This document shows positions 102-30,836 of a stretch of DNA of 33,106 nt, piece after piece. Position 1 is the first letter of the stretch. Each line of letters begins with the position of its first letter. The translations under genes were made by a program, and so were the position numbers. A model generated the notes under the pieces. It had not been told where the DNA came from. It saw only the letters and a program-made list of their open reading frames with translations, and ran no database searches. Source of the stretch: a virus; the IMG/VR virus record IMGVR_UViG_3300035126_000526, positions 1 to 33,106 of that record; one strand, given 5' to 3'.

Positions 102-1673
102 TTACGCTGCGGGCGGGGCGGCTTGCTGCTGTGCAATGCCACCCGCCGCGCGTGCTGCTTCCTGGGCGACCGAAGTGGCCGCTTGGACCTTGACCTGATC
201 CGCCATTGCCCGCCGTGCTTCCTGCTCCAACTGCTCGGGTGTCTTGACAAGGCCGGGTTCGGCCACGCCAAGCGTGCGAGCGGCGAGAGAGAGCAACACC
301 CCCACGTTGATCTGCCGTGCCGCCTCGGGTCCGAGCGAACCCGCGAGTTGCGCGAGTTGCAACGCGGCCTCGGCGCGACGCTTCTTGTCGATCGCTTCAA
401 GCCCCGTCAGCGAGACGACTTCGGCGTAATCGAGTTTCTTCTTGTCGAGCAAGCCCGTTCGCGTGCCCATGTCGATCGCGGCCCACAACAGAGGCTTCTG
501 CTGTTCGTCCACGATCGTCGCGTAGAAGTCGCCAAGCCAGCCCTGCAACTGCTCGGCGGTCTGCTTCCATGCCGTGCTGTGACGGCCAGCCTCACCGGAC
601 GGGGCGGCGTCGGCGTCCAAGAGCATCGTCTTGGCGAGCGACATTTGCAGGCGTTCCCACACCTGCGAGACGACCGAGAAATCAGCGATCTTGTCAACCT
701 TGAGGATGCCAACGTCCTGAGCCTGCCCACCCTCAACGCGAGCGTTGGGGATGATGCGACCGGACGGAACAGACAAGTCCTCGGGCGTGAGTTGGCTGAG
801 GCGGTCGAGAAGGAAATTGAACTTTGACGCGGCCTCGGCCCAATCCTTCATGCGACCGGCGAAGAAGTCGTTGGCGGTAAAGTCGCCCGCGTACAACTCC
901 AACAGGCCACGTCCGTAGTCGTCGCCACCTGCACGCTTGAAATCGGTCTGGAAGATGCGGGGCGTGTCGTGCGTGACTTCGTGGACGATGACATCCGCGA
1001 CTTCCTGCTGCAACAGCCACTTGCCGTCACGCTGGCGGCGGTAAACGGTGTAGAGGTCAAGTTGCTTGTCTTTGTCCTGCGGGCCGATCCTGGCAATCAC
1101 ATCCTCGCCAAGTTCCTCGGCGGCGACGCATTCCTTGATGACGTGGTAGAGGGCGTCCCCGTACCCGTCGCGGCGTGTGCGGTACTGGTCGCGGCGGAAC
1201 ACCCGTTTAGTGAAGTCGTCGTTCCCGCGAAGGCCGATGCCTTCAAGCGTGCTGCCCGTCACAACCAATTGCGTCAGCGATTGGGTGGTGCGGGCAAAGA
1301 AACCAGACGATGTGCGGTACTTCTTGTCGAGCGAACTGGCTTCCAGTGCCGCCCGAATCTTGAGCGATTCGATGTACAACGCCTGCGCCATCGCGGGGTA
1401 CGCGCCCTCTTTCTTGGCGTCGTACTTGTACTCGGGGTCCACGTCCAACTCGAACCAACCGTCGCCTGTGAAGATGGTCGAGCGGAGTTTGCCGACGACG
1501 TTGATGATGCCGCGTGCGGCGAGCGAGTCGTTGGGATTGTGGAGTTTGTCGCCCGAGAGGTGCCCGTACTCGGGCATGATGAACGGCAGCGAGAGCGCAG
1601 CCGCCCAGCGCGCGCGCTCAATCGCACCAGAGGATCGGGAATCCTCTGCTGCCCAAAGTTTGGCAAGGCTCAT
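102..1673 (-). CDS. Head-tail connector (portal) protein, T7 gp8-like
   Basis: This 523-residue protein matches the T7 gp8 family in length (T7 536) and landmarks. An early helix (AIERARW) is followed by the conserved ARGIINVVGKL block near residue 53, equivalent to ARGLNNLASKL in T7. TGDGWFELDV comes next, and QLVVTGSTLEGIG near residue 135 corresponds to QLVVAGNVLLYLP. The protein forms the dodecameric portal ring through which DNA is packaged and ejected. The last 70 residues are Ala/Gln-rich and probably disordered. There is no clear Shine-Dalgarno; the ATG overlaps the upstream stop as ATGA, so translation is probably coupled. Confidence 0.9.
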   Translation of the reverse strand: MSLAKLWAAEDSRSSGAIERARWAAALSLPFIMPEYGHLSGDKLHNPNDSLAARGIINVVGKLRSTIFTGDGWFELDVDPEYKYDAKKEGAYPAMAQALYIESLKIRAALEASSLDKKYRTSSGFFARTTQSLTQLVVTGSTLEGIGLRGNDDFTKRVFRRDQYRTRRDGYGDALYHVIKECVAAEELGEDVIARIGPQDKDKQLDLYTVYRRQRDGKWLLQQEVADVIVHEVTHDTPRIFQTDFKRAGGDDYGRGLLELYAGDFTANDFFAGRMKDWAEAASKFNFLLDRLSQLTPEDLSVPSGRIIPNARVEGGQAQDVGILKVDKIADFSVVSQVWERLQMSLAKTMLLDADAAPSGEAGRHSTAWKQTAEQLQGWLGDFYATIVDEQQKPLLWAAIDMGTRTGLLDKKKLDYAEVVSLTGLEAIDKKRRAEAALQLAQLAGSLGPEAARQINVGVLLSLAARTLGVAEPGLVKTPEQLEQEARRAMADQVKVQAATSVAQEAARAAGGIAQQQAAPPAA

Positions 1674-2524: not shown

Positions 2525-2553
2525 GTGTTAGTCTACGCTAACATTGTCAACAC
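2525..2553 (-). promoter_or_regulatory. Nested inverted repeats at the RNA polymerase stop codon
   Basis: The arms GTTAG (2544-2540) and CTAAC (2531-2527) form an inner stem, and GTGTT/AACAC (2553-2549 and 2529-2525) an alternative outer one. The element covers the polymerase stop and ends just before the ATG at 2523. A TTGACA lies inside (2551-2546), but no acceptable -10 follows at 16-18 bp. It may be a weak terminator, a translation control hairpin or a protein site; the sequence does not decide. Confidence 0.3.
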
Positions 2554-4940
2554 ATGGCGTAGTTCGCGGCAATGACAGCATTTACGTCAAACTCGCCGCA
2601 CGCTGGCGGGGGTGAAAACGCGATGTCTGTGTGCTGTTCTCGCCACTGTAGCCAAAGGTCTGTCAGCAAGGGGTTTGCGTGGGTTTCCGCGAACTTCCGC
2701 ATGGCCGTGTCGCCCACCTGTTCGGCGGTCGCGGCGTGGCTCCAAAACGAGTCGTGAACCCCCAAGAAAGCCACCCCACGGTTGCGGCACTCCACCGCCG
2801 TCCGCATGAGAACCGCCGTGTCGATGCCATGCACAAAGTTGGGAGCCGCCCCGTTGATCTGCTGTTTGACGTGGACCTTGTTCAGCGTGTTAGCGGCCAC
2901 TAACACCCGCCCAAACTCGGTGTTCACGCACACGGTTGGGTCCGCCGAGTACGGCTGCACCGTCACCCAGCCCACCGGCGTCCGCCAGATCACCGGGCGG
3001 TTGGCCTTCGCAATCTGTTCCGCCGCGCCGCGAATCCAGTCCATCGCCTCACACACGCGGGGGAACATGGTCCGCACGCCCTCCATGAGCCGCTTGACGA
3101 TGAGCCGCTTGGCGTCGCGGGCCAACTCACCTGTAAAGCCTAACTCTACAAACCTTGCCCTAACCTGCTCGCCAGCCCCGTATGCCGTCACGCCGTAGGG
3201 CGTCGTCATCACCGTTTGCTTGCACACCGCCTTGCCGTGCTTAGTCAGAATCTCAATCGCCAGCGTGTGCGCCGGGGTCTGGTCCTCCTTCTCCAACGCA
3301 CGCCGGACGATCCCCGCCAGGGTCGCGTACAACGCGCTCGGCTTGTCCGTGGGGTAGAGGTTGACGTGTTCCGCCGCAACCTCGTCCCGCATCATCGCGG
3401 CGAAGTGCTGGAACCCGCTCGCCGTCGCGTCACGCTGGACCGGCAAATGCACCGCCGCGTCCTTTTTCATCAGTGCCCGACACGCCACAAGGAACTGCAA
3501 CGGGTTCTCGGCCTCACGCCAGAAGCCCGTGTTCCTCGGGTCCGACGCCGACCGGCCAATCTCGCGGATGTTCTCTTTGACCCACTCGATGCGGTCCTCG
3601 AACGAAATCTTGTCGTGGCCGAACATGGTCGCGGCTTGGATCGCCACCTGCCGCGTCACGTCTGGCCCATCCACCGGGTCGGCAAACTCAATCAGCGACC
3701 GCTGCAAATCGTTCCCGTAGTGGTTGAGGTATTGCGGCTTGGCATACGCGCGGCTGCGGAAGTCCGCTTGATGCGGCATGTAAAGCCTCGGTTCCTCCAT
3801 GAACTCACGGGCGACCTGCCGAGCGTTGTACGCCGTGATGAACTCGCTCTCGTTCTTCAAGTTCTCGCGGCGAATCCGCACCCGCTCATTGCGCCATTCC
3901 CGTTGCACAGCCTCGTCGTCCGTGCCGGGCTTCGGCGGCAGGTCGAGCGACGTGGCACGCGGCAGGCCCGCGATGCCGCCACCCTCTTCCATGAGCGTGT
4001 CAATCACGCCGAGCATCCACTTGTTGACGCGAATCGGCGTGTTGCCCAACGCTTCCAGCCCCGCAAGGAACTCGCCCATGTTGGGCAGGTTGTCCCGCAG
4101 CACCGACCGCTGGGCGGGGGTGGACTGCGTGATGATCCGCATGGGGAGCGTGATGTAGCCACCCCGCGTGCTGTCCTCGTGCTTGTACGGGGGCACCACC
4201 ATCGGCGGATAGATCACGCGAAGGTCCGCAAGTGCGGCCTCGTCGTAGGCGATGGTCTTGCGCACCGCATCGTCCAGCCGGAACTGCTTGCTCGTCTTGA
4301 CGCCCTTCCGCACCGTGTCCCGATGGAACGCCAGCGCGAACGGTTGGCCCTCGTCGGCAGCGGAACACGCGCCAACAGCATCCCAGACGAAGTGCTGCCC
4401 CACGCGGACGCACATAAGCGGGTCGTAGATCGCGTCTTGGTCAAGGACCGCCGCGTACTTGTTCACGTCAGAGGGCTTGATCGCGTTGCGCCGCCGCTTC
4501 TTGAACATGGCGCGGATGAGGTCGTACTTCTTTTCCTTCTGCCAACGGTCGAGTTGGGCCTGCGCCAGAATCGCGCGCCCGACCAGCCCGAACATGCGAG
4601 CCTGGTTCACGCGGTTGCCGGTGAACAGGGCGTTGAGCATCACCGTCAGCGTGATTGCTGCCGCCTTCTTGGGCGTCACGAGCAAGTACGGGGCGACGGC
4701 CTCGGTGCGCGTCCACTTGCCTTCCTGCATCAGTTGTCGCCGCTTCTGGCGAATGGCGATGTTGAGGGCAACGGCCCAATGAGCAAGCCACCGGCGACCG
4801 GGCGGGGTCGATGCGATGCGGCCCTTCTCGTGGGCCTTGTCGCGGTCGCGCCAGTACGCATCGCGTCCGCGTTGCTTGCCTTTGCGTTCGATAAGAACCT
4901 GCCGGTCGAAGTCCGTTCCTTGCAGCAGTCCGGGCATCAT
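2547..4940 (-). CDS. Single-subunit DNA-directed RNA polymerase (T7 gp1-like)
   Basis: This 797-residue protein (T7 is 883) is a phage-type RNA polymerase that would transcribe phage genes from its own promoters. Visible landmarks are the DFRSRAY motif near residue 393; motif A QRDATASGFQH with metal-binding Asp504; the O-helix KQTVMTTPYG with Lys574 and Tyr582; and motif C VHDSF with Asp730. The C-terminus ends ANYAMC, near T7's aromatic FAFA end. The N-terminal domain is shorter than in T7. The start ATG (4940) overlaps the stop of the upstream mini-ORF as ATGA and follows AAGGAGG by only 1 nt; the second ATG (4937) is better spaced. It is the last gene of the replication block and lies just before the morphogenesis genes, unlike T7, where it is the first major early gene. 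It is intact at all catalytic positions. Confidence 0.97.
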   Translation of the reverse strand: MMPGLLQGTDFDRQVLIERKGKQRGRDAYWRDRDKAHEKGRIASTPPGRRWLAHWAVALNIAIRQKRRQLMQEGKWTRTEAVAPYLLVTPKKAAAITLTVMLNALFTGNRVNQARMFGLVGRAILAQAQLDRWQKEKKYDLIRAMFKKRRRNAIKPSDVNKYAAVLDQDAIYDPLMCVRVGQHFVWDAVGACSAADEGQPFALAFHRDTVRKGVKTSKQFRLDDAVRKTIAYDEAALADLRVIYPPMVVPPYKHEDSTRGGYITLPMRIITQSTPAQRSVLRDNLPNMGEFLAGLEALGNTPIRVNKWMLGVIDTLMEEGGGIAGLPRATSLDLPPKPGTDDEAVQREWRNERVRIRRENLKNESEFITAYNARQVAREFMEEPRLYMPHQADFRSRAYAKPQYLNHYGNDLQRSLIEFADPVDGPDVTRQVAIQAATMFGHDKISFEDRIEWVKENIREIGRSASDPRNTGFWREAENPLQFLVACRALMKKDAAVHLPVQRDATASGFQHFAAMMRDEVAAEHVNLYPTDKPSALYATLAGIVRRALEKEDQTPAHTLAIEILTKHGKAVCKQTVMTTPYGVTAYGAGEQVRARFVELGFTGELARDAKRLIVKRLMEGVRTMFPRVCEAMDWIRGAAEQIAKANRPVIWRTPVGWVTVQPYSADPTVCVNTEFGRVLVAANTLNKVHVKQQINGAAPNFVHGIDTAVLMRTAVECRNRGVAFLGVHDSFWSHAATAEQVGDTAMRKFAETHANPLLTDLWLQWREQHTDIAFSPPPACGEFDVNAVIAANYAMC

Positions 4941-5414: not shown

Positions 5415-5755
5415 GCTGCCACCGTCCTTTCCGTTGCCGCCCGAATCTGAGCCTTCGCCCACACGCGGGCCGCTGCTTCCTGCAATGAGCCTGCAAACCA
5501 CTCGCCGCCCAATCCGATTCCCTTGTCGCCGTCTGCAATCGCTTCCGCCACCGACGCGACGGCCTTGATGACGCTGCGGTATCCGCTGTAGCCGACAACG
5601 CTAGCGACCTGTTCCAGTGTCGCGCTCGTGTAATGCCGAAGCGTGTACGACGCGAGTTGCTTTGCGTACACCGCGCGGGGCGTCCCGTGTGTTTCTTCCC
5701 ACACCTTGACTTCCTCGCGTGCCGCCTCCAAGACGTACCTGAACGGAATCACCAT
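5411..5755 (-). CDS. DnaA domain IV-like DNA-binding protein (114 aa)
   Basis: The start MVIPFRYVLEAA at 5755 overlaps the end of the helicase gene by 7 nt and follows AGAGGGCAGG. The core ARAVYAKQLASYTLRHYT-like segment (residues about 24-41), then ATLEQVASVVGYSGYRSVIK, matches the layout of DnaA domain IV: a basic helix, then a helix-turn-helix whose last helix begins near a G-x-S/R-x-V-I pattern (GGRDHSTVIHA in bacterial DnaA). No AAA+ ATPase domain is present. It would bind DnaA-box-like DNA, or compete with host DnaA, next to its own helicase. The match is from motif reading; the remainder (ADGDKGIGLGGEWFAGSLQ) is unassigned. Confidence 0.6.
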   Translation of the reverse strand: MVIPFRYVLEAAREEVKVWEETHGTPRAVYAKQLASYTLRHYTSATLEQVASVVGYSGYRSVIKAVASVAEAIADGDKGIGLGGEWFAGSLQEAAARVWAKAQIRAATERTVAA

Positions 5756-7164
5756 GCCTGCCCTCTGCTTTCGTCGATGTTCTCGAACCGCGTGCGTTCC
5801 GCGTTCCAACGCAGATCGACAACGCCCGTGGGTCCGTTTCGCTGTTTCGCTACGATCAACTCGGCCTTGCCCACCTTGTCGGGGTTTGCGGCCAACCACT
5901 CGGGATCGCTGATGTGGTAGTAGTCCTCGCGGTGCAGTAGCAGCACCACGTCGGCATCCTGCTCGATGCTGCCGGATTCGCGGAGGTCGGACATGCGGGG
6001 CTTGTTGCCCTCGCGCGACTCGGCCCCGCGATTCAACTGCGAGAGGCAAATCACCGGCACGTCCAACTCGCGGGCCAGGGACTTGATGCCACGGCTGATT
6101 GCCGAGACTTCCACCTGTCGGCTCTCGCGTGCCTGCGCCGGGCTGGTCAACAACTGCATGTAGTCGATGACGATGGCACAGACCGGCACGCCCTCACGCT
6201 TGCGGGCCAGTACCCGGCGACGGGCCATGTTGCGGAGTTGGGTAATGGTCAACCCCGCCCGGTCGATGATGTCGATGGGCATGTTCGCAACCGTGTCGGC
6301 GGCACCGAGAACGCGACGGTACTGGTCGCCGCCCATTGTTCCGTTGCGGAGAACCGGCAGGTCAACGCCTGCATGTGCGGACGCGATACGGTCCCACAGG
6401 GCTTCGGCGGACATTTCCAGCGAGAACAGGAGGATCGCCCCCGCCTCGGTCCCGCAAATGCCCTCGGCCATGTTCACGGCCAGGGCGGTCTTGCCCATGC
6501 TCGGGCGGGCCGCGACGATCACCAACTCGCCGGGCTGGAACCCGCTGGTCATGGCGTCCAGTCGGAAGAATCCCACCTTGACGCCGCGATTGCCCTTCGG
6601 CGAGTCCAAAGCCGCGAGCCGGGCGGTCGTCAGTTCCTTCATCGTGCGAACCACGGCCTGCGACTTGGCTTCGGTCAGTTCGATTGCCGCGCTCTGGTAC
6701 TCGTCCAGAACCACCGTCACGGCGTCCGAGTCGGTGGGGTCAATGTCGTAGGCTTTGTGGACGGCCTGCCCCGCGCTGACCACAAGACGGCGCAAGGCTG
6801 CCGACTGGCCGACGATCTTGGCGTAGGTCACGGCTCCTGCGGCGGACGGCACGCTCTCGGCCAGTTCCCGAAGGTACTCGCCACCGCCCACGGCCTCGAA
6901 CAGATTGCCGTTCTTGATCGCCTCAATGAGCAACACAAGGTCGATACGCCCCATGCGGTCGATGATGTCACACGCCACCCGGTAGATCGCCGCATGCCGC
7001 TCGTCGTAGAAGTCCTCGGGGCTGGCAATGTGGGTTTGCACGTCGGCAAGCACGTTCGGATCGTTGAGAATGGCCCCCAAAAGGCTCATCTCGGCATGGA
7101 CCGCTTTCGGCACCGGGCGATTGAACAAGGCTTCGAGGTTGACGATCGGCGCGTTACGCGGCAT
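5749..7164 (-). CDS. dnaB: Replicative DNA helicase, DnaB-like
   Basis: This 471-residue protein has the normal DnaB layout. The N-terminal DnaB domain begins AVHAEMSLLGAILNDP (from residue 21). The RecA-like motor carries Walker A ARPSMGKTA (219-227, Lys225), FSLEMS (247-252), Walker B VIDYMQLL (332-339), LSQLNRG (374-380) and the DLRESGSIEQDAD loop (393-405). It unwinds the fork as a hexamer on the lagging strand. It has no primase or zinc domain, so it is unlike T7 gp4 and would need host DnaG. The ATG at 7164 follows AAGGAGGG and overlaps the initiator gene by 11 nt, so initiator and helicase are co-translated. Confidence 0.95.
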   Translation of the reverse strand: MPRNAPIVNLEALFNRPVPKAVHAEMSLLGAILNDPNVLADVQTHIASPEDFYDERHAAIYRVACDIIDRMGRIDLVLLIEAIKNGNLFEAVGGGEYLRELAESVPSAAGAVTYAKIVGQSAALRRLVVSAGQAVHKAYDIDPTDSDAVTVVLDEYQSAAIELTEAKSQAVVRTMKELTTARLAALDSPKGNRGVKVGFFRLDAMTSGFQPGELVIVAARPSMGKTALAVNMAEGICGTEAGAILLFSLEMSAEALWDRIASAHAGVDLPVLRNGTMGGDQYRRVLGAADTVANMPIDIIDRAGLTITQLRNMARRRVLARKREGVPVCAIVIDYMQLLTSPAQARESRQVEVSAISRGIKSLARELDVPVICLSQLNRGAESREGNKPRMSDLRESGSIEQDADVVLLLHREDYYHISDPEWLAANPDKVGKAELIVAKQRNGPTGVVDLRWNAERTRFENIDESRGQAW

Positions 7165-8083
7165 GGTGGCCCTCCTTGACCATCGCCACGAACTCTGGCG
7201 GGGGTGTATTGACGAACTGAGACTTGGGCCAGTTGGCGAACTTCGCGTGCTTGGCCTTCAGAGCCTCTACGATTCGCTCTACGGCGTCCGAAGGCAGTTG
7301 ACGGACCATCAGGGCATCCGACTCTCGGGCGTCTCTAATCGAATCTAATGGCTTCGTGGACTTGACCCACGGCCTGCCTTCGAGCCATGCGTGGATCGCG
7401 GGGGCGAACCGCTTCTCCCAATTCGGGTCGCGCTTGCACTCGTCGAGGGCTGCGAAAACCTGCGGGGCGATGTCGTCGAGTTTTTCCTTGACCCAGAACA
7501 GCAACGCCTTGTTCATCGTGTGCCGCTTGTTGTGGGCGTAGGCGTTGCAGAACTCGGTGAAGCGGGACATTTCGGCTGGCCCGTCCGCCGCAAGGGGGAT
7601 AAGGGGGTATTCTGTATTACTGTTACTATTACTATTAGTATGTCGTGTGACATGAGCGTGACCGACAGCGTGACATGAGCGTGACCGATGCTTCCGCTGA
7701 CGCAAACGGGCCTGATTTGTAGCGTTTTCCTTCTTGTCGAACAAGCGTGACAGATAGCGTGACACGACCGTGACAGTCACGCTTTTGTCACGCTCTATGT
7801 CACGCTCCGTGTCACGCTCTGCACCACTTCGAGCGTGCCGGTGGACCTCTGCCACGTTGAACTTGTGGAGTTCAATGAGGGCCGCTTCGATGTCCGCTTC
7901 CGAGAGACGCGCGAGCCTGGCGTGTTCCGCCAACGTGCCCGAAAGTTTCCCGGAACCGAGTTGCATCATCGAACCGATCATCTCAATCCAGACTCCACGA
8001 GTTGCCGCGCAGCACAGGGCAAGGCCGGGGTCGGCCTTCCACTTGTCATGCTCGAACTTGGTGTACCAGTCCTTGCCAGCCAT
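7154..8083 (-). CDS. Replication initiator / replisome organiser with origin inside the gene
   Basis: This 309-residue protein lies directly upstream of the helicase. Residues 1-80 (WYTKFEHDKWKADPGLALC, then SEADIEAALIELHKFNVAEV) resemble the winged-helix N-terminal domain of phage replisome organisers. Residues about 85-155 form a low-complexity linker (ERDTERDIERD, TNSNSNSNTE) encoded by the iteron and AT-rich DNA. Residues 165-309 form a helical C-terminal domain (FTEFCNAYAHNKRHTMNK, FAALDECKRDPNWEKRF) that in such proteins contacts the helicase. I infer that the N-domain binds the iterons and the C-domain recruits DnaB, as lambda O and P do together. The ATG (8083) follows AAGGATG. Confidence 0.75.
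   Translation of the reverse strand: MAGKDWYTKFEHDKWKADPGLALCCAATRGVWIEMIGSMMQLGSGKLSGTLAEHARLARLSEADIEAALIELHKFNVAEVHRHARSGAERDTERDIERDKSVTVTVVSRYLSRLFDKKENATNQARLRQRKHRSRSCHAVGHAHVTRHTNSNSNSNTEYPLIPLAADGPAEMSRFTEFCNAYAHNKRHTMNKALLFWVKEKLDDIAPQVFAALDECKRDPNWEKRFAPAIHAWLEGRPWVKSTKPLDSIRDARESDALMVRQLPSDAVERIVEALKAKHAKFANWPKSQFVNTPPPEFVAMVKEGHHAA
7608..7643. other. AT-rich region, probable DNA unwinding element
   Basis: In otherwise GC-rich DNA, about 36 bp here are mostly A and T, with tandem TTACTA/TTACTG units (TTACTGTTACTATTACTA). It lies 12 bp from the first iteron, at the 3' side of the array with respect to the initiator gene. Lambda ori has the same plan: iterons, then an AT-rich tract melted by the initiator. 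On the minus strand it encodes the Asn/Ser repeat of the initiator linker. Confidence 0.6.
7655..7818. repeat. Ten 8-bp iterons forming the probable phage replication origin
   Basis: Plus-strand AGCGTGAC occurs at 7655, 7667, 7678, 7744 and 7756, with a one-mismatch copy (ACCGTGAC) at 7767. The inverse GTCACGCT occurs at 7776, 7787, 7799 and 7811. Within each cluster copies start 11 or 12 bp apart, so all sites lie on one face of the helix. The two orientations meet head to head at 7767-7783. A 58-bp unrelated spacer (7686-7743) separates the first three copies. All lie inside the initiator coding sequence, which is how lambdoid origins are arranged. Confidence 0.8.
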
Positions 8084-8098
8084 TTTCGCATCCTTGCG

Positions 8099-8290
8099 TT
8101 ACTTCCACCACGTCTCGCCGGTCTTCTTCTGTCCGTTCCGCCTGCGGTAGTCCATCGCCCTGAGTTTGGCGTCGTGTATTTTCTCGGTGTAGGTGTTTTC
8201 CCCAGTGCTGTTGATCGCGTTGCCTATGCAAGCGACACACAACTTGCGGGTGGGGGTGTCGAGGGGTCCGAAACATTGGGGGCACTTCAT
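8099..8290 (-). CDS. Small zinc-ribbon-like protein (63 aa)
   Basis: MKCPQCFGPLD and KLCVACIGNAI supply two CxxC pairs about 12 residues apart, a plausible zinc knuckle, followed by a basic tail (MDYRRRNGQKKTGE). The ATG follows AAGGAGGAC and overlaps the upstream resolvase stop (ATGA). It sits between the RusA-like gene and the initiator, 15 bp from the latter, so a replication or recombination accessory role is likely. The exact function is unknown. Confidence 0.7.
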   Translation of the reverse strand: MKCPQCFGPLDTPTRKLCVACIGNAINSTGENTYTEKIHDAKLRAMDYRRRNGQKKTGETWWK

Positions 8291-8649
8291 CCGGTCCTCC
8301 TTACCGTCATCACCAACTTCGCCTCTGCACCCTTCTCGATGGTCATGGGCAGGTGCGTGAGGCCCGAGTCGTCGTCAATAAGCCCCGCGTCCCGTAGCCC
8401 GTCGAAGTAGGCTTTGCAACGGGCGAGTAGGTTGTCTTGGTCGCGCTTGCGGGCGTCCGTGAACGTCCACGCGAGTTGGACCGATGCCCGCACCCATCGC
8501 GGCTCGTCGCGGTTCAGGGCACCCATCGCCACCAACTTCGCGGCCTGCCGGTGCTGCTTTGTTACCTTCGCCTTCGCCATGTAGTGCGGGCGTGCGTTGG
8601 GCGAGAGCATGGGGCTGGGTACGGGTAGCGTGAGCGTGACGTGGTTCAT
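8287..8649 (-). CDS. RusA-like Holliday junction resolvase
   Basis: The start MNHVTLTLPVPSPMLSPNAR at 8649 is chosen because it follows AAGGAAAGGACG and gives 120 residues, the RusA size; the frame is open further upstream without a site. The RusA signature is clear: KRDQDNLLARCKAYFDGLRD, with Asp70 and Asp72, Lys79, and a DDDSG acidic cluster at 92-94. These correspond to the E. coli RusA catalytic aspartates 70, 72 and 91. It would cleave four-way junctions made during recombination and replication before packaging. Neighbours ERF and SSB belong to the same process. Confidence 0.88.
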   Translation of the reverse strand: MNHVTLTLPVPSPMLSPNARPHYMAKAKVTKQHRQAAKLVAMGALNRDEPRWVRASVQLAWTFTDARKRDQDNLLARCKAYFDGLRDAGLIDDDSGLTHLPMTIEKGAEAKLVMTVRRTG

Positions 8650-8663
8650 GCGGCGTCCTTTCC

Positions 8664-9146
8664 TTACGAGCCGTGTGGGGCGTCGGCTACCCATGCGATG
8701 TCGTCTACGCGAACGTCCAAGCCGCGCGGGAATGGCCCCTCGTCGCGTCGGCATCCGGGCGTGTCATCTTGGTAATCGCTTGGCGAAAACTTGCTCGACC
8801 GCACCACAGCGCGAATACCGGTGAGAGACACCCACTCCGCAGACACGGGTTCCGCCAACTCAAAATAAATCACCAACCCGCTCCGCAACATCATCGCGTA
8901 GTCAAACGGATCAACGCACGCCTTCTGTAACGCTGGCGGATAGCCATACGCCGCAGCAATGTCGCCTTCGTGCGTCTCCGATGCGTGCTTCACTTCCGCC
9001 ATCGCGTCGTCGTAGCACGCCTTCACGCCAGCGTCTTCGAGAAGATCGCCAGTTCCGTCAAGGCATCCGCACAGCATCTTGACGGCTTCAAGAAGTCGCG
9101 CGGCTTGGTGTGGGGTCGTCCGAAGTGGTAGCAGTTCATTTTCCAT
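8664..9146 (-). CDS. Hypothetical protein (160 aa)
   Basis: The ATG follows GAAAGGACACTT. Features seen are an N-terminal helix (TPHQAARLLEAVKMLCGCLD), an acidic middle, and a C-terminal segment rich in Asp with DDTPGCRRDEG. There is no signal peptide or membrane segment. It lies 14 bp upstream of the RusA-like gene within the early operon. I do not recognise the family. Confidence 0.65.
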   Translation of the reverse strand: MENELLPLRTTPHQAARLLEAVKMLCGCLDGTGDLLEDAGVKACYDDAMAEVKHASETHEGDIAAAYGYPPALQKACVDPFDYAMMLRSGLVIYFELAEPVSAEWVSLTGIRAVVRSSKFSPSDYQDDTPGCRRDEGPFPRGLDVRVDDIAWVADAPHGS

Positions 9147-12230: not shown

Positions 12231-12666
12231 CTTCGCCGTCCTTTCCGCCCGCAAACACGCGAGCGCGTTTCACAACCAACTCTTCCTTCGTCTCGATCTT
12301 GAACCACTCGGCGGGCATGGTCTCGCCATGCTCTGCGATGAGGCTGGACGCCTTGAACGCGCCCGCCGACATGAACCGGAACAACTCGTCTGGTCCGCCA
12401 CGTTCCAGCAACGCACGTCCAACCTGCTCCGGTTCGGCAACCTTCTTGGTGGTCTTGCGTCCGACGTAGTACCGGATGTCGCCGTTGACAATCTCCCGGT
12501 CGCCCAGGTACGCGATTGCCGCCTTGCTCACGTTGGCCTTGAGTTCCCGCACGCGAGCGTTGAGCGTGTCGATGGCGTCGTACATGCGGATAAGGTCGTG
12601 GTCGTTGCCCAGGCCGGACTCGACGACCACGGCGGCATCCTCTACCTGTTCAATGAGGCCCTTCAC
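12214..12666 (-). CDS. Hypothetical protein (150 aa) between ERF and SSB
   Basis: The ATG overlaps the ERF stop (4 nt) and its own end overlaps SSB by 17 nt. Residues 25-50 (LIRMYDAIDTLNARVRELKA) look like a coiled coil. A basic YYVGRKTTKKVAEPEQVGRA stretch follows, and the end is acidic (GGKDGEDVESE). Its place between two ssDNA recombination genes suggests an accessory in recombination or a nuclease inhibitor, but no motif proves either. Confidence 0.65.
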   Translation of the reverse strand: MKGLIEQVEDAAVVVESGLGNDHDLIRMYDAIDTLNARVRELKANVSKAAIAYLGDREIVNGDIRYYVGRKTTKKVAEPEQVGRALLERGGPDELFRFMSAGAFKASSLIAEHGETMPAEWFKIETKEELVVKRARVFAGGKDGEDVESE

Positions 12667-13298
12667 GCGGCCTCCGTTTCAAGGACAAACAGAACGGAAC
12701 CGGCTTCCTCGTCCGTCATCTTCGCGCTGACCGGAACGCCGGTGGCCGCGATGATCGGCTTCCACTTGTCTGCGTTGGCGGCGGAAATCTTCTCGCCGAT
12801 GCGCCCCTCGATGATCTTGAACAACTTCTCTTTGGCGGTCGGCTGCTTCGGCGTCTCGGCAACGGCCTTGCGTGCAACCTCGGCGGCTGCGGGCTTGGTG
12901 TCGTTTCGACCGCTCGCGTGGTTCCCGTCGTCGTCCTCGGTCACAACGCCAACCACGGCGGCAAGCGCGTAACGGCGGGCGTAGGTGATTGCCGAGCCGT
13001 ATGCCTGCGGGTCGTTCTTGGTGGGCTTCATCGCCAGTGCTGACGACATCCACTGGCCGGACGAGTGGATAAGGACCGTCTCGACGATCACGCTGCCCGT
13101 GCTGTCGGTCGTCGGGTGCTGGCTAATCGCAAGCCCGTTGGCGGCGAGTTCGGCCTTGCACGCATCCCACACTGAGGACAGGTCTGCGTAGGACGACTTG
13201 AAGAAGGGGTTGGCCTTGTCCTTGACGGCGGACTTCATCTTGGTCTGCGCCTTGCACAGTGCCGCCGCCAGTTCTCCGATGTTTTCGCTCTTGTTCAT
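12663..13298 (-). CDS. erf: ERF-family single-strand annealing recombinase
   Basis: The start MNKSENIGELAAALCKAQTK at 13298 follows TCAGGAGTACCC. The 211-residue protein shows the ERF core: NPFFKSSYADLSSVWDACKA (30-49), then VIVETVLIHSSGQWMSS, and DPQAYGSAITYARRYALAAV (97-116) running into GVVTEDDDG. The C-terminal part after a Lys/Ala linker is a separate small domain (AKEKLFKIIEGRIGEK). Erf anneals complementary ssDNA for phage genome circularisation and recombination. SSB and the RusA-like resolvase complete the pathway. Confidence 0.93.
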   Translation of the reverse strand: MNKSENIGELAAALCKAQTKMKSAVKDKANPFFKSSYADLSSVWDACKAELAANGLAISQHPTTDSTGSVIVETVLIHSSGQWMSSALAMKPTKNDPQAYGSAITYARRYALAAVVGVVTEDDDGNHASGRNDTKPAAAEVARKAVAETPKQPTAKEKLFKIIEGRIGEKISAANADKWKPIIAATGVPVSAKMTDEEAGSVLFVLETEAA

Positions 13299-13313
13299 GG
13301 GTACTCCTGAAAA

Positions 13314-13342
13314 CCCCTCCCCGCGTTTCCGCAAGGGAGAGG
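13314..13342 (-). promoter_or_regulatory. Leader hairpin with GAAA tetraloop before ERF
   Basis: The leftward RNA folds CCTCTCCC-TT-GCG around a GAAA tetraloop with CGC-GGGGAGGGG, followed by TTTTCAGGAG, so a U tract runs straight into the ribosome site. It may act as an attenuator or a processing/stabilising element for the ERF transcript. Confidence 0.5.
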
Positions 13343-15950: not shown

Positions 15951-17039
15951 CTATTTTTGTGCGGATATTGTGCGAGAATCTTCCGGCGGCGCGGGTTCCT
16001 TCTCGCGGGCTGTCACTAGCACCATGAACCGCTCGTGATTGACGTAGTGATTCATGGCGATCTTGATGTCATGGCCCAGCCACTTGCACACGGCGGGCGC
16101 GGGGTACTCCCCCATCCAGTCGGTTTCCAGGCTTGACCGGAGGGCGTGCAGGGGCGGCGTCCAGTAGCACCCCGCCCGCTCGATAAGGCGGATGGTGTCG
16201 CGGACGTACCCATCCACCCGCACGTCCCAGCAGAACCGGACCTGACCATCGGGCATGGCCTTCTGTGCGGCCCGTAGAGCCTCGTAGAGCCTCGGGGCCA
16301 TTGGAACGACCCTCGCGGCCTGCTTGGTCGTCTCGACGCCCCCACGGGGCCACACGCTGATTGTGCGGGCCTTCCAGTCAACATGCCCCACCTCCAGCGT
16401 GAGGGCTTCCATTGCCCGGAGTCCGGCGAACCGGGCAAGGGCAAGGAACGCACGCCATGAGTCGTTACGGGCGGCGGCTATCACTTTCTCGACCTCGGCC
16501 ACGGGCACATACGCCTTCGCCCGTGAGACGTTGGGCTTGTCGTTCTTGACCCGCGCCATCGGGTTCTTGGCGAGCCGGTTCTGTCGCTCAGCCTCGGCGA
16601 ACCACATCTTCGTAAACGTCACGATGCCCCACACGGTTGCCGGTGCCAGGATCGGCGTGTCCGGCTTGTTCCCTTTCCGCTGACGCCGGAGCCAGGCGAC
16701 ATAATCCGCGCACTGCTTCGGCGTGATCTGGTCAATGAGGGCGTCGGCACTGAAGAAGCGTTTGATCCACCCGAGCGCGGTGCGGTAACGGACCTCGGTG
16801 GAGGGTGCTAGTTGCTCGTTCTGGGCCAGAAAGTCCTCGGCCCACGAGTCCACCGTCTCGTTGCCCTTCGCGGCGAAATGCTCGGCGGTGAGCGATTGGC
16901 ACATGGCGAGGGCTTCGCGCCGTGTCACTTCGGCGCGGTTGCCGAGGTACTTGATACGCTCGACGCCGGTGGAGTCTCGCCACGCGGCGCGCCAGTAGTC
17001 GCCATTTTTCCTGAGCCTGACGGGATTGCGGGTTGTCAC
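15951..17039 (-). CDS. int: Tyrosine-family site-specific integrase
   Basis: This 362-residue protein has an arm-binding-type N-terminus (VRLRKNGDYWRAAWRD), a SAM-like core-binding domain (about 60-165), and a catalytic domain with all expected residues: Arg208 (AGLRAMEALTL), Lys239 (TTKQ), His298 and Arg301 (LHALRSS), His323 (WLGHD) and nucleophile Tyr332 (NHYVN). It would integrate the phage at tRNA-Thr. Its stop codon (15953-15951) abuts the tRNA 3' end. It is the last gene of a leftward operon driven from 19150-19178. The ATG has AGAAGGAAC upstream and a hairpin before that. Confidence 0.96.
   Translation of the reverse strand: MTTRNPVRLRKNGDYWRAAWRDSTGVERIKYLGNRAEVTRREALAMCQSLTAEHFAAKGNETVDSWAEDFLAQNEQLAPSTEVRYRTALGWIKRFFSADALIDQITPKQCADYVAWLRRQRKGNKPDTPILAPATVWGIVTFTKMWFAEAERQNRLAKNPMARVKNDKPNVSRAKAYVPVAEVEKVIAAARNDSWRAFLALARFAGLRAMEALTLEVGHVDWKARTISVWPRGGVETTKQAARVVPMAPRLYEALRAAQKAMPDGQVRFCWDVRVDGYVRDTIRLIERAGCYWTPPLHALRSSLETDWMGEYPAPAVCKWLGHDIKIAMNHYVNHERFMVLVTAREKEPAPPEDSRTISAQK
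15956..15975. repeat. Right pair of putative integrase arm-type sites
   Basis: TTTGTGCGG at 15956-15964 and the related ATTGTGCGA at 15967-15975 lie 11 bp apart, 6 bp from the tRNA 3' end, inside the last codons of the integrase gene. They repeat the left-arm heptamer TTGTGCG in the same orientation. Confidence 0.55.
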
Positions 17040-17100: not shown

Positions 17101-17739
17101 TCAGGCGAGCGCGTACATCGTCTGGAGTTCTTCCAGCGCGTCACGCGCATTGTTCTTGGTGTCCCGCATGATCTTGATAGCCTCGGACTCGGTGAGGCTC
17201 AGGCCAATCTGTCGCGCTATGTCACTCAGGCGAGACGCGAACCCTGCCGCGAATCCCTGATTCGTAAGCCTGATCTTGACGCACCGACTGAGAACTTGGT
17301 CGGTGGTGGTGCGCTCAAACAACTCGGCCTGATTCTCGGTGGTGGTGGTGAAAAACCATGCGGCGTGCAGAGGCATCGTCTCAAGGAAACCCCGCAACTG
17401 TTGGAAGACTTGCGGTTTCAGCCCGTGCGCCTCGTTCACGATCAAGGCGCGCCCCCCTTTCGTCCAACCGGGCACGCGCAGATTGTCGGCCATGCGCTGA
17501 ATGTCCGAGACAGTCAGTTCCGAACCGTCGCCAACTTCCTCGATAGAGAAATCATCGGCGATAGACTCGGCCATGATCCGGGCGAGTGAAGTCTTGCCCG
17601 TGCCGGTTGGACCCGTGATCCAAAAGGCATTGTGCTTCACCATGCCCTTGCGAATGTACGCGGACGCGATTTCGTGCGCCTTCGGTTGGCCAACAAACTC
17701 GGACAGGGAGCGCGGGCGGAATTGTTCATAGAGGTTCAC
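17101..17739 (-). CDS. Clamp-loader-like AAA+ ATPase (DnaX/RFC type)
   Basis: The GTG start at 17739 overlaps the upstream stop (GTGA) and gives 212 residues. NLYEQFRPRSLSEFVGQPKA is the usual opening of DnaX/RFC subunits. Walker A is GPTGTGKT (43-50, Lys49). Walker B is ALIVNEAH (98-105), with Asn for the usual Asp. Sensor 1 is FTTTTENQ, and the clamp-loader SRC motif is at 151-153 (VLSRCVKIRL). The protein ends after the helical lid, lacking the collar domain that binds other loader subunits or the tau regions. It may replace or disturb a host loader subunit. No phage sliding clamp or polymerase is in view. Confidence in the fold is high; the role is inferred. Confidence 0.85.
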   Translation of the reverse strand: MNLYEQFRPRSLSEFVGQPKAHEIASAYIRKGMVKHNAFWITGPTGTGKTSLARIMAESIADDFSIEEVGDGSELTVSDIQRMADNLRVPGWTKGGRALIVNEAHGLKPQVFQQLRGFLETMPLHAAWFFTTTTENQAELFERTTTDQVLSRCVKIRLTNQGFAAGFASRLSDIARQIGLSLTESEAIKIMRDTKNNARDALEELQTMYALA

Positions 17740-17948
17740 GCGCCACCCCCGATCGGGCGGACAACGGCGACCGACATGTAGGAACGCCCAGTCTCTTCCG
17801 TGACGTTCACAAAGTAGACGCCGCTCGGCATGTCCTTGCACGCTTGTACCGCCGCTTCCCGTTCCGATGCCGCTTTGATTGTGCGGCTTGGGCGCGTGCG
17901 CCAGTATGCCGGACGCTTGGTGGGATTCTGGACGTGGTAGAGGTTCAA
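17736..17948 (-). CDS. Hypothetical protein (70 aa), TTG start
   Basis: The useful part begins NLYHVQNPTKRPAYWRTRPS. I put the start at TTG 17948, which overlaps the upstream stop as TTGA. It continues IKAASEREAAVQACKDMPSG and VYFVNVTEETGRSYMSVAVV, an alpha/beta pattern with two strands after a helix. It ends PIGGGA, encoded by the GGGGGTGG ribosome site of the next gene. Function unknown. Confidence 0.55.
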   Translation of the reverse strand: MNLYHVQNPTKRPAYWRTRPSRTIKAASEREAAVQACKDMPSGVYFVNVTEETGRSYMSVAVVRPIGGGA

Positions 17949-18436
17949 CGGGCACCCCCTTCCGTGCGGGGCGTGTAGTCTCGGGTCCGGTATGCGCTGG
18001 ACGGGTGGCAACCGCCCAACACGAACACTTCGATTTCGACGCCCTTGCCGACATGGGCTTGGAGGTACTCGCCGATCTGCTGAGGCTTGGAGTATCCGCA
18101 CCCGTTCAACGCATAGTGGAACGCGGGGTATTCGCGGCGGGTCGAGTGGACCTGCCCGAACGCGGGAACGTGTTCGCCTTTCTCGCCGATCGCCTTCGCT
18201 GGGTTGTGCTTGGCCCAGACAACCCGCAAGCCCTCGGGCGTTTCCTCGTATGCGGCGTAGCGGTCGGTCATGCCCTTCGACTGCGGATTGAGCGGGACCA
18301 GATAGAACCGACGCGGGGCGGGCTTGGTCAGGGCATCGGCCAACCGCGCATGCCCAGCGTCGTCGGGGCTGCGCTCAGGGAAACACTTCGCCAGTTCACG
18401 CCGAAGCGCGGCGGACGCCTTATCATTCAGAGACAT
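17945..18436 (-). CDS. Hypothetical protein (163 aa)
   Basis: The start MSLNDKASAALRRELAKCFP at 18436 follows AATGGAGTC and a GC hairpin. Visible segments are RRFYLVPLNPQSKGMTDRYA, EGLRVVWAKHNPAKAIGEKG and a Cys-containing region (YALNGCGYSKPQQIGEYLQA, then VLGGCHPSS). It looks like a soluble alpha/beta protein. It is translationally linked to the next gene. No family recognised. Confidence 0.65.
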   Translation of the reverse strand: MSLNDKASAALRRELAKCFPERSPDDAGHARLADALTKPAPRRFYLVPLNPQSKGMTDRYAAYEETPEGLRVVWAKHNPAKAIGEKGEHVPAFGQVHSTRREYPAFHYALNGCGYSKPQQIGEYLQAHVGKGVEIEVFVLGGCHPSSAYRTRDYTPRTEGGAR

Positions 18437-20191: not shown

Positions 20192-21949
20192 TTAGTGGGC
20201 GGTAAACCACGAGACGGCTTTGCCGTACTTGCGGCGGAGGCGTTCGATGTGGGCGGCTATACGGGGGTCTGCGGCGTCGTTGAGGTCTTTGGGGCCGTCA
20301 GCGAAGGTGAAGCCCCAAGCGTCTAGGCAGCCCGCTAATGCGTCTACAAGGTCGTCGTGGTCGAGACAGCCCCGGTCGTGGGAGAGGCGGCTGACTTGCT
20401 TCTGGAAGAGGGGGTTGGCGGCGACGTCGGTGGGGATAATCAGTCGGTGGTTACTCAACATCGGTTCAATGGTCTTGATGATGCGGAGTTCTTTGTGACC
20501 ACGGGTGGCGGTGGTGGGGCGGCTGATGACGTTGGCGGCGAACCCTTTGGGCTTGTCGGGGCGGGCGTTGGGCTTGACGTGGAGGCGGCTGACGTGGATT
20601 TCGAGGGCGGCGCGGTAGGCGTCGCCGCCGAAGTTCTGCTCAACCACAATCTCCTGTGTGGTTGTCTCGTATGCGAGCCTGGCGAGGGCGGCTAGGTTCT
20701 CGGGGGTCGCGCCACCCTTGAGGCCACCCATGCGGCGGACCCAATAGAAGCCGTTGAGGTGGCTGACGATGGCGTAGCCGGTCAAGTCGGTGCCCGTGCC
20801 TGCCGGGTCAACGTACATCTTCGTGCCGGTGAAGGGGGCGAAGGACGTGGCCGTGACGTGGATGGGGCGGTAGAAGCGGTCCTGGCCGATGCCGCCGCTT
20901 TCGAGGTCGTCGATGGCGGTGGAGCCGTTGTGGTCGCGGGTGCCCCATGTGAGGCTGACGGGGGCTTCGTCGCCAGCGATGTCGAACACCATGAAGTCCC
21001 GCAACTTGAGGGGGTAGCGGTCAGAGTCGGCAAGGTGCCGGACCAACTGGCAACCCTTGAGCCATTCGAGCCGTTGGCGACGGCGGGCCTCTACGTCAAG
21101 TTCCGTGAAGCGTTTGGGGAACAGGCACCCGTCCGAGCGTGCCTTGCCCTGCTCGATGAAGGCGATCACGCCGGGGGCGAGGGGGAACGTCTGTTCGTCG
21201 GGCTTGGGGACGCAGAGGGGGTAGGCGAAGATCGGATGCCCGGCTGCGTTCAACTTGTGAACGATCGTCTCTTCGTGGTTGGGGGTGAGGGTGTAGAGAA
21301 TCTCGTTGGGGTCGCGTGCGCCGCCTTCCTCGAAGGCCACGGACGGGTAGAGCCAGTGCATGAACTCGCCGGTCTGGTTGGCGAGGCGTTCGCGGGCATC
21401 GAACGTGACGGTGTTGCCGATCGTCTCAATGTCGTCCACGATGACGGTGTGGGCGCGGTTGTTCTCCAGCGTGCCGCCGATGCCGACGACGGAGATGGAC
21501 GGCTGGCGGTCTAGCGGGGCCATGCCCACATCGAAGGACTTGGCGTTGTCGCGGTGGGCCTTCGTGGGCCGCATGTGCCGGAGGAACCACACGCTGTCGA
21601 GCCACCCACGGATGAGCGTGGAAGTCTTGATCGCGGTCGCTTCGTTCTTACAGACGATGACGACCTTGCGGCGCGGGTCGCGGAAGAGTCGCCACACGGC
21701 GTTCGTGGCGGCAACGAGGTAGGTCTTGCCGAGGCCACGGCACCCGAGAAGGACGCGGGTGGTGGGGGAGGCGGCAACGGCGTTGTCTACGAAGTCGTAT
21801 TCGAGTTCGGAGAGCGGGGCGCGGCCTGTGCCGTCTGGACGCTCGGAGCCGATTTCAAGCCACAACTGACGGATGAAGAACTTGGCGTCCGAGTCGAGCA
21901 ATGCGAAATACTCGGCCTGCTCAGGGGTCAGTCCGGGGGGTAAAAACAT
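20192..21949 (-). CDS. terL: Large terminase subunit, T7 gp19-like
   Basis: This 585-residue packaging motor closely follows T7 gp19 (586). The ATPase part has Walker A GCRGLGKTY (69-77, Lys75), the KSFDVGMAPLDRQPSISVVG block, Walker B VIVDDIE (169-175) and YTLTP coupling. The nuclease part has YVDPAGTGTDLTGYAIV (Asp381), VVEQNFGGD (Glu437) and LDHDDLVDALAG (Asp530-536). It cuts concatemers and pumps DNA into the procapsid through the connector. There is no obvious Shine-Dalgarno before the ATG. In T7-type phages this gene lies at the end of the late region, as here. Confidence 0.96.
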   Translation of the reverse strand: MFLPPGLTPEQAEYFALLDSDAKFFIRQLWLEIGSERPDGTGRAPLSELEYDFVDNAVAASPTTRVLLGCRGLGKTYLVAATNAVWRLFRDPRRKVVIVCKNEATAIKTSTLIRGWLDSVWFLRHMRPTKAHRDNAKSFDVGMAPLDRQPSISVVGIGGTLENNRAHTVIVDDIETIGNTVTFDARERLANQTGEFMHWLYPSVAFEEGGARDPNEILYTLTPNHEETIVHKLNAAGHPIFAYPLCVPKPDEQTFPLAPGVIAFIEQGKARSDGCLFPKRFTELDVEARRRQRLEWLKGCQLVRHLADSDRYPLKLRDFMVFDIAGDEAPVSLTWGTRDHNGSTAIDDLESGGIGQDRFYRPIHVTATSFAPFTGTKMYVDPAGTGTDLTGYAIVSHLNGFYWVRRMGGLKGGATPENLAALARLAYETTTQEIVVEQNFGGDAYRAALEIHVSRLHVKPNARPDKPKGFAANVISRPTTATRGHKELRIIKTIEPMLSNHRLIIPTDVAANPLFQKQVSRLSHDRGCLDHDDLVDALAGCLDAWGFTFADGPKDLNDAADPRIAAHIERLRRKYGKAVSWFTAH

Positions 21950-23126: not shown

Positions 23127-23987
23127 CTAATCGGCCCTGCGTGGGGCAAACGCGGCGGTGGCGTCCCCATGCTTCATGGTGTCAACCACGGGACCGATGG
23201 CGCGTGTCGCCATGTCCGCGTAGGGGCGAATCTGTTTCATGGTGCAGTTGGCGGATGAGTACCAGAGAACCGCGCCGTCGCACCCCAAGTCCCGCAGAGT
23301 CTTGATCTGCGTCTGCCAGAACTCCGGCGAGATAAGGCCGCGTCCGGCTGACGGGTGAATCTCGGGCGAGATAAACGGGATGATCGGTAGCCCGATGCCA
23401 TACGCACGCGCGAGCCTGCGGCACTCATCGACCTGCCAGCGTGCGAACCGCTGCCAGTGCTGGATGTTGGTGCTGTTGACGTACAGCGACGGGTGCAGCG
23501 TGTCGAAGCACTCAATCAGTTCCAACGCGAGGAAGTCGTTTGCGATCTGCGACCGCCGCAACTCGTTCGTGTCGTTGGTGATGACGGAGTTGAAGACGTT
23601 GTAGCCTGTCGGCAGGATGCCGTACAGCCCCACGGGTGCCGTCTCGCTGCCGGTGCGAACGTCGGCGATGACCTGACGAATGAACGCACAGTCGTTGGAA
23701 ATGTCCCGCCCAACGTGGATACGGGTGTCCGAACGCAACGGGCGGTGAGGCTCGCCAATGCGGTCGGCGCGGCTTTCGATGTTGACGACGACCAACGCGC
23801 CCGGCGAGAGCGTCGGCCACTTGCGGGCCTCTGCGGGGTCATAGCGGGACACGTCACGCGCCCCGCCAGTGTTGGGCTTCACGGCGTAGAACCGCTGCCC
23901 GTCCACGAGAACGTCCACCATGCCCGGCAGGGGCGCACGCGGCAGGAAAGGCCGATCGTGCGGGTAGAGGCAGTCGTACAACTTCAC
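23127..23987 (-). CDS. Putative TIM-barrel glycoside hydrolase-like protein
   Basis: GTG at 23987 overlaps the previous stop (GTGA). The 286-residue protein shows successive barrel strands: GALVVVNIESRA (Glu71), APVGLYGILPTGYN (117-130), LHPSLYVNSTNIQHW (164-178), YGIGLPIIPFISPEIHP (196-212) and GCDGAVLWYSSANC (235-248). The order and motifs recall GH56-type enzymes (D-x-E strand, YG-x-P-x-x-YN, hPSlY, G-x-x-G-h-v-l-W-x-S), with Asn69 in place of the usual Asp. No signal peptide is seen. It could be a cell-wall or capsule hydrolase acting at lysis or in the tail. The family match is tentative. Confidence 0.5.
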   Translation of the reverse strand: MKLYDCLYPHDRPFLPRAPLPGMVDVLVDGQRFYAVKPNTGGARDVSRYDPAEARKWPTLSPGALVVVNIESRADRIGEPHRPLRSDTRIHVGRDISNDCAFIRQVIADVRTGSETAPVGLYGILPTGYNVFNSVITNDTNELRRSQIANDFLALELIECFDTLHPSLYVNSTNIQHWQRFARWQVDECRRLARAYGIGLPIIPFISPEIHPSAGRGLISPEFWQTQIKTLRDLGCDGAVLWYSSANCTMKQIRPYADMATRAIGPVVDTMKHGDATAAFAPRRAD

Positions 23988-24271
23988 TGGTCAAAGTCCC
24001 CAATGGGTTTGGACAGTTGCCCGTCCGTGCCGGTGAGTTTCAGATGCTTCTGCACCTGCTTCGTGAGTTCGCCCGCTGGCGTGTTGTGGAGCGGCACGTC
24101 GTCCGCGCCCAACTGCTTCATGCGTTCCATAACAGCCTTGAGCATCGCGGGCGTGGGCGGGATGCGGACCAGTTCGCCGGTCTTCTGGTCCATCACTTCC
24201 TGCCCGTCGCGGAGTGCTTCCAGCATCCGCTGGTCGAGCAGGTCGGCTAGTTGCTTGCGGGTGTCGCTCAT
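23984..24271 (-). CDS. terS: Probable small terminase subunit
   Basis: This 95-residue protein has an early helix (QLADLLDQRMLEALRDGQEV), a GELVRIPPTPAMLKAVMERM motif followed by KQLGADDVP, and a charged C-terminal tail. Podoviral small terminases often have A-x-x-T-P-A-x-L-x-V-x-x-x-x-L-K-x-x-G in the same place, and T7 gp18 (89 residues) lies in the same part of the map, between the ejection proteins and the large subunit. The start overlaps the gp16-like stop by 4 nt. Assignment by motif and position only. Confidence 0.55.
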   Translation of the reverse strand: MSDTRKQLADLLDQRMLEALRDGQEVMDQKTGELVRIPPTPAMLKAVMERMKQLGADDVPLHNTPAGELTKQVQKHLKLTGTDGQLSKPIGDFDQ

Positions 24272-30320: not shown

Positions 30321-30836
30321 TTATGAGCCGTAGGGGAAACGATCGACTTTGGGCTTGGCCGGGAACAAGTCCTTCAAGCCCGCGTTGAGTTGGATGCCCG
30401 TGAGCGCGCCCTGCAAGCCGCCCGACAAGCCCGACATGACCGGGTTCTGCTGGGTCGCGTACAACTGATCCAGGCTCGCCTGCGTGCCAAGCCGAATCTG
30501 CTGCAAGGCGTTGTTGTAGTTCATGTCAATCGAGCGATTGGCACGGGCCGAACTGCCGAGAATGCTCTGGTCGAGTGCTTCGTAGGACGATCCCGCGAAC
30601 CCGCCGCCACGCTCTGCCGCCGACGCAAGCAACCGACCGCGAAGGGCGGCGGTTTCCAGTTGGGCGTTCTCGCGCTGCTGACGCTTGCGTTCGGCCAACT
30701 GCTCGGCCTGCAAGCGTGCCGCGTCCTCGGTGTTCCGCCCCTGCTTCTCGATCTGATTGTTGCGCGAAATCGCACCAATACCAGACAGGGCCGCGCCGCC
30801 GAGTGCCGACGCGATGAGGATTTCTGTTCCTGCCAT
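30321..30836 (-). CDS. Internal virion protein, T7 gp14-like
   Basis: This 171-residue protein (T7 gp14 is 196) starts MAGTEILIASALGGAALSGI, a hydrophobic Gly/Ala-rich segment. A long amphipathic helix follows (NNQIEKQGRNTEDAARLQAE), and a second Gly-rich hydrophobic region comes later (MSGLSGGLQGALTGIQ). This matches gp14-family ejection proteins, thought to insert in the outer membrane. The start overlaps the stop before it (TAATG). Confidence 0.8.
   Translation of the reverse strand: MAGTEILIASALGGAALSGIGAISRNNQIEKQGRNTEDAARLQAEQLAERKRQQRENAQLETAALRGRLLASAAERGGGFAGSSYEALDQSILGSSARANRSIDMNYNNALQQIRLGTQASLDQLYATQQNPVMSGLSGGLQGALTGIQLNAGLKDLFPAKPKVDRFPYGS

Follow-up and report, generated by a model that had tools for sequence, protein, structure and literature searches.

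A cluster of ten short repeats within a phage gene is probably, with a likelihood that we put at about 85% from the sequence evidence, the origin from which an uncultured phage replicates. This phage possesses an integrase together with transcription and virion genes of the T7 type, and its origin would follow the P22/lambda plan, being located where the initiator gene encodes the linker of the protein. The window, i.e. the whole stretch of DNA analysed, is a virus record of 33,106 bases, the features of which are collected in Table 1. The repeat cluster is located inside the initiator coding sequence, adjoins an AT-rich tract prone to melting, and has a helicase gene directly downstream, the corresponding gene being a DnaC-like loader in one relative (L114). 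By anatomy, the locus is of the same kind as gene 18/gene 12 of phages P22 and L. The plan itself is already known from these two phages, while the T7-type setting, the mirrored array and a two-way exchange of modules among relatives are what differs here. It would thus seem that genes for T7-type transcription and for the virion can be combined in one phage with a P22-type replication start in place of the T7 replisome.

Table 1. Coordinates of the features of the window
Feature	Position	Strand	Remarks
Replication initiator gene (P0001)	7154-8083	-	309 residues
DUE-proximal iteron block	7655-7685	+	three AGCGTGAC (7655, 7667, 7678)
Spacer	7686-7743	no strand	58 bp, no octamer at 6/8 matches or better
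Second iteron block	7744-7774	+	AGCGTGAC at 7744 and 7756, near copy ACCGTGAC at 7767
Inverted iteron block	7776-7818	-	four GTCACGCT (7776, 7787, 7799, 7811)
AT-rich candidate unwinding element	7607-7642	no strand	36-mer of lowest stability in the window; codes for SNSNSNT, a Ser/Asn-rich linker
Stretch without blastn match to four sister contigs	7437-8078	-	flanks 96-97% identical (up to 7436) and 89-93% identical (from 8079)
DnaB-type replicative helicase	5749-7164	-	DnaB_C 1e-89, DnaB N-terminal domain 6e-25
RusA-like gene just upstream	8287-8754	-	conserved in the lineage, used as anchor; E 4.9e-4, 21.2 bits (below the curated cut-off of 22.8)
T7-type RNA polymerase	2547-4940		
Head-tail connector	102-1673		
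Nozzle	31410-33083		
Internal virion proteins	24268-28050, 30321-30836		PHROG
T7-type terminase	20192-21949		
Integrase	15951-17039		
AAA+ ATPase	17101-18054		
ERF recombinase	12663-13334		

The initiator gene overlaps dnaB by 11 bp. The array lies where the earlier note had placed it, within an initiator coding sequence upstream of dnaB. The encoded protein, P0001, is predicted to comprise an N-terminal DNA-binding domain, a linker covering the repeats and the AT tract, and a C-terminal partner domain. Sister contigs were found via the initiator (L001-L004, L031, and L114) and, via the RusA-like anchor, also L137 and L138. This anchor turned up in only eight viral records; seven of these also have an initiator, and among the seven, L002 and L003 are identical over 7 kb. 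The same note had described the protein as replisome-organiser-like, which agrees with the matches of relatives: the three sister proteins scanned (L001, L002, and L031) match PHROG families 9327, 13246 and 270, all three as replisome organizer and two also as primosomal protein, whereas P0001 does not return any significant Pfam, PHROG or NCBIfam match (best hit PHROG 9327, E 0.065). These labels come to P0001 from its relatives. Nor does P0001 report a Pfam match above the curated cut-off with the Rep domain of iteron plasmids (Rep_3 and similar). No relative was returned at E 0.01 in the annotated phage collection, or by the N-domain alone as a query against viral contigs, and the PDB sequence search reports two matches only (E 0.37 and 0.52). 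AlphaFold, run twice with six sequences each time, yielded poor models (mean pLDDT 50.0 and 51.2). hhalign analysis reports only weak relations of P0001 with P22 gp18 (E 0.012) and lambda O (E 0.33), which touch the same presumed helix-turn-helix stretch, and nothing useful with phage L gp18 (E 0.21). As the sequences do not establish that P0001 is a homologue of lambda O or P22 gp18, we say that it would work like these proteins and make no claim of common descent.

The array covers positions 7655-7818, in the middle of the 309-residue frame, and comprises nine exact octamers, five AGCGTGAC on the plus strand and four GTCACGCT, the inverted AGCGTGAC, on the minus strand, together with ACCGTGAC, a near copy with 7/8 matches. 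A recount of the exact octamers again gives five and four, in agreement with the 8-bp sites listed by the earlier note. Weaker matches flank the array at 7644 (6/8), 7832 (7/8) and 7851 (6/8, other strand), and the bases next to the octamers are less fixed, with a preceding G in 6 of 10 and a following A in 7 of 10. The spacing of 11-12 bp claimed for all sites applies inside the blocks, but not to the 66-bp step (6 × 11) from 7678 to 7744, nor to the inversion, where the sites at 7767 and 7776 are 9 bp apart. Within 180 bp, the densest cluster of a single octamer counts nine copies in the window versus a maximum of three in 50 first-order Markov sequences of equal length, and 9 of the 16 AGCGTGAC sites in the whole window are found inside 7650-7820. 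The head-to-head turn is indeed present, but it is less unusual than had been supposed, as mixed orientations also occur in other viral AGCGTGAC arrays (L011, L014, and L017) and the P22 array includes one inverted copy. The GC skew, which had been proposed as a check, does not turn at the array, its cumulative minima being near 14.0-14.5 kb (-1.10) and 19.5-20 kb (-1.08).

The AT-rich tract adjoins the array as anticipated, and ranks first among the 33,071 36-mers of the window for low stability (-36.8 kcal/mol versus a mean of -55.1, s.d. 3.3), the next separate one being at -41.9 kcal/mol. The sister loci L001-L004 and L031 likewise have their 36-mer of lowest stability in the initiator gene, right after the repeats; because all five carry an identical 36-mer, they count once as stability evidence. 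L114 possesses a variant of that sister 36-mer (rank 1 of 6473), and L138, with another initiator, a different one (rank 1 of 6782). Among the control origins, the lowest-stability 36-mer ranks 4 of 2366 for lambda O, 31 of 6966 for P22 gene 18, and 1 of 7966 for phage L gene 18 in the stretches fetched, and the P22 and phage L tracts likewise encode Asn-rich stretches. On the coding (minus) strand, the tract reads TAATAGTAATAGTAACAGTAATAC (7611-7642), with visible TAG/TAA triplets that resemble those of DnaA-trio elements and that may be a mere by-product of the Ser-Asn repeat.

Multiple phased sites would also suit a regulator, and the array is located ~265-430 bp inside the initiator gene, where binding could block transcription. 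Nonetheless, we consider it improbable that the repeats are autoregulation or copy-control sites (operators, handcuffing) rather than an initiation site, since they adjoin the stretch of lowest stability in the window, for which a regulator has no use, and since the layout is kept in relatives that have other repeats. Less probable still is a mirrored array that works via a hairpin or cruciform, be it a single-strand origin or a structured RNA. The strand folds at -50.1 kcal/mol versus -31.6 for shuffles (z -6.1), and some inverted repeats are found in the sister linkers too, but any head-to-head array of perfect repeats folds strongly, and the folding is not kept in the corresponding linkers of L003 (z +0.6), L001 (z -2.5) and L138 (z -1.3). 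Lastly, it is hardly credible that the array is a coding repeat (ERD-ERD-ERD, SNSNSN linker) that arose at the level of the protein and is devoid of DNA function. ERD is indeed encoded by three sites that share a frame, and SNSNSN by the tract. Yet the octamers occur in each of the three reading frames and in either orientation (within ERD, SVT, VSRY, LSRL, RSRS, CHA, and GHA), which argues that the array DNA itself is constrained, and when the protein was recoded synonymously 20,000 times, with codon usage taken from 15 window genes, nine sites were never reached (mean 0.58, maximum 5). Both tests oppose a sole coding cause.

If we assume that the array is the origin, copies of the initiator would bind the ten octamers via their N-domain, with a helical repeat of ~11 bp, and the loaded array would strain the adjoining AT tract, which would open. 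The C-domain would recruit the phage DnaB encoded next door, and, once this helicase is loaded, the host primase and the host polymerase III would copy the DNA.

Close relatives seem, as far as sequence comparison tells, to have traded the DNA-reading half of the initiator along with the matching repeats. Where similarity to the window is lost (Table 1), the four sister contigs possess another N-domain and other repeats. Type 1, the window, associates AGCGTGAC repeats with DnaB. Type 2 (L001 and L004) has two 24-bp repeats with GGTTAACC, and type 3 (L002, L003, which matches it exactly over 7 kb, and L031) has GGATAACC repeats, both also with DnaB. Type 4 (L114) has the N-domain and repeats of type 3 with a variant AT tract, another C-domain and the DnaC-like loader (phrog_50, 2.7e-31), and no DnaB match is reported in its 12.8-kb record. 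Type 5 (L138) exhibits an initiator with PHROGs 9474 and 678 as best hits, CCCA repeats every 11 bp and the least stable tract of its locus, while neither DnaB nor a T7-type RNA polymerase is matched in its record. The repeats of the sister types are fewer than those of the window, with two 24-mers in L001 and three GGATAACC copies in L003. Across types the repeat sequence varies and the spacing is kept at 11-12 bp or multiples thereof, the steps being 24 and 36 in L003, 24 in L001, and 11 in L138; in phage L, the step is 11 too. The remaining contig, L137, is without such an initiator in the stretch read and has a DnaA-domain-IV-like protein instead. Small helix-turn-helix proteins of this kind are encoded at L137:2799-3164 (Bac_DnaA_C, E 1.2e-12), L138:4990-5424 (1e-12) and L114:5489-5869 (0.0035, below cut-off); they occupy the replication slot, in records where no DnaB was found.

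The borders of the exchanged segments can be followed by pairwise identity. Between the window and L003, identity is 87-98% over 8640-8101, 35-57% over 8100-7441, and 97-100% over 7320-6901. In the initiator gene, L001 and L003 are at 52-75% only over L003:3200-3559, which covers the DNA-binding region and the repeats, and at 97-100% from 3560 to the end. Conversely, L114 is 95% identical to L002 across the N-domain, repeats and AT tract, after which the C-domain is different; with L003, its identity is 92-100% over L003:2780-3559, and similarity ends within 3560-3619, a short way beyond the repeats and at the AT tract (3539-3574). Taken together, these differences indicate that the protein parts change with their presumed partners, the N-domain with the repeats and the C-domain with the helicase gene. 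DnaB is 99-100% identical to that of the window in all four type 2 and type 3 contigs tested, and 92% identical in the contig of L031. We lean slightly towards a broader reading, according to which the in-gene origin of this lineage, which is without a recognised DNA polymerase of its own, would be a recombination joint: an address module (DNA-binding domain and repeats) and an engine module (C-domain and DnaB or DnaC-like loader) would be exchanged independently by crossovers around the origin, each part being kept linked to its partner. Placed between the DNA-binding half and the partner half of the initiator, an origin would allow the protein and its target to be passed on jointly. The sister phages form a ready panel for how initiators choose their sites and helicase and, should the origin indeed be such a joint, natural matched pairs for reading the recognition code of the initiator.

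Among known systems, P22 gene 18/gene 12, where the phage has a DnaB of its own, comes nearer to the window than lambda O/P does. Lambda uses a separate loader, P, for the host DnaB, unlike the window, which encodes its own DnaB next to the initiator. The plan of lambda ori that had been invoked is nevertheless supported, by the repeats, the least stable tract, dnaB, the lack of a detected polymerase, and the co-variation of N-domain and repeats. In P22, gene 18 (32488-33303) contains a rep_origin in its middle (32840-32984) and is followed by the overlapping DnaB-like gene 12 (33300-34676), which is the same plan as in the window; this origin is annotated by similarity to lambda, and that of phage L is putative. 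Gene 18 of phage L resembles the initiator gene of the window in its 11-bp-spaced repeats, its two sub-blocks, which stand a multiple of 11 bp apart (44 bp in L, 66 bp in the window), and its AT-rich tract that follows the repeats and codes for an Asn-rich linker, ahead of the DnaB-like helicase (gene 12). It differs in that all copies found are in one orientation and of another sequence, and that no homology is detectable by hhalign. According to excerpts of PMC8022706, P22 has four repeats of ~20 bp, versus the ten 8-bp sites, 11-12 bp apart, of the window. Since the 11-bp repeats of phage L depart from this length too, iterons of ~20 bp are not a strict requirement. Lambda resembles the window in that its initiator gene has iterons and an AT-rich tract in the middle, the tract being called crucial for unwinding in PMC7466680; the location of the origin within gene O is also given in PMC6022878. 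The four annotated lambda iterons are 18 bp long and, according to PMC7466680, each an imperfect inverted repeat, which is different from the short non-palindromic octamers of the window.

Three spaced copies of AGCGTGAC occur in 17 viral stretches (L006-L022), and an open frame of at least 80 residues is listed at the array in 12 of them. Nine of these frames were scanned, leaving out L006 (nearly a duplicate of L018), L017 (which encodes the L011 protein) and L020, and eight match PHROG replication-initiation or primosomal families, L011 returning only a family of unknown function. The AGCGTGAC arrays sit in initiator genes of PHROG families 2447, 391, 2509, 9474, and 9327, which indicates that repeats of this kind recur alongside dissimilar N-domains. 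When the 17 stretches were searched by tblastn with P0001, no hit was better than E 0.15. A scrambled-octamer control returned five stretches, of which L126 and L129 share one protein, L127 has another, and L128 and L130 show, by eye, initiator-like frames. Arrays in initiator genes therefore seem common in general, and a special cross-family role of AGCGTGAC is not established.

The T7-type RNA polymerase and virion reported by the earlier note are borne out in the window, the virion genes including a connector, a nozzle and internal virion proteins. When isolated phages were searched with the RNA polymerase, the three top matches were LUZ100, Caulobacter S2B and Mycobacterium jiawei, which share with the window a T7-type RNA polymerase (26.8-27.7% identity), the head-tail connector and the integrase. 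They differ from the window, where no PolA was found, by a PolA in all three and by a primase/helicase in LUZ100 and S2B or a toprim protein in jiawei. T7-like phages with temperate features are already known, as PMC10134795 describes for LUZ100; word searches of the open-licence literature returned no description of this lineage or of a T7-type phage with such an origin. A DNA polymerase of its own, which is a feature of the T7-type replisome, was not found in the window (G000), which may lack part of the genome: PolA, PolB and PolIII-alpha (families A, B and C) return no match there or in the sister G002 (41,459 bp; classed linear), which is likely near-complete because its ends (L135 and L002) overlap with 97% identity over 338 bp. 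PolA was not found either in G001, G003, G004, G006, G007, and G008, of which G001, G003, G004, and G008 measure only 11-18 kb. Besides a PolA, G005 (85 kb; L031, L131, and L150) shows a second match to RNA polymerase, which is partial, and a second one to DnaB. It may for this reason hold two elements, which could be two phages or else a phage plus host DNA. Between the terminase and virion genes, the frame 23127-23987 (minus strand) reports a weak Glyco_hydro_56 (hyaluronidase family) match (24.3 bits, cut-off 23.2). Regarding DnaB, 186 relatives were found in the genome collection and 80 kept, the nearest being from Phycisphaerales (49%), a weak hint as to the host. The upstream genes of eight DnaB relatives, read by eye, look chromosomal in seven cases and like a prophage in L038 (Parvularculaceae), where an initiator-like frame (L038:3724-4620, by eye) lies upstream of the DnaB relative, possibly a cellular prophage with the same gene order.
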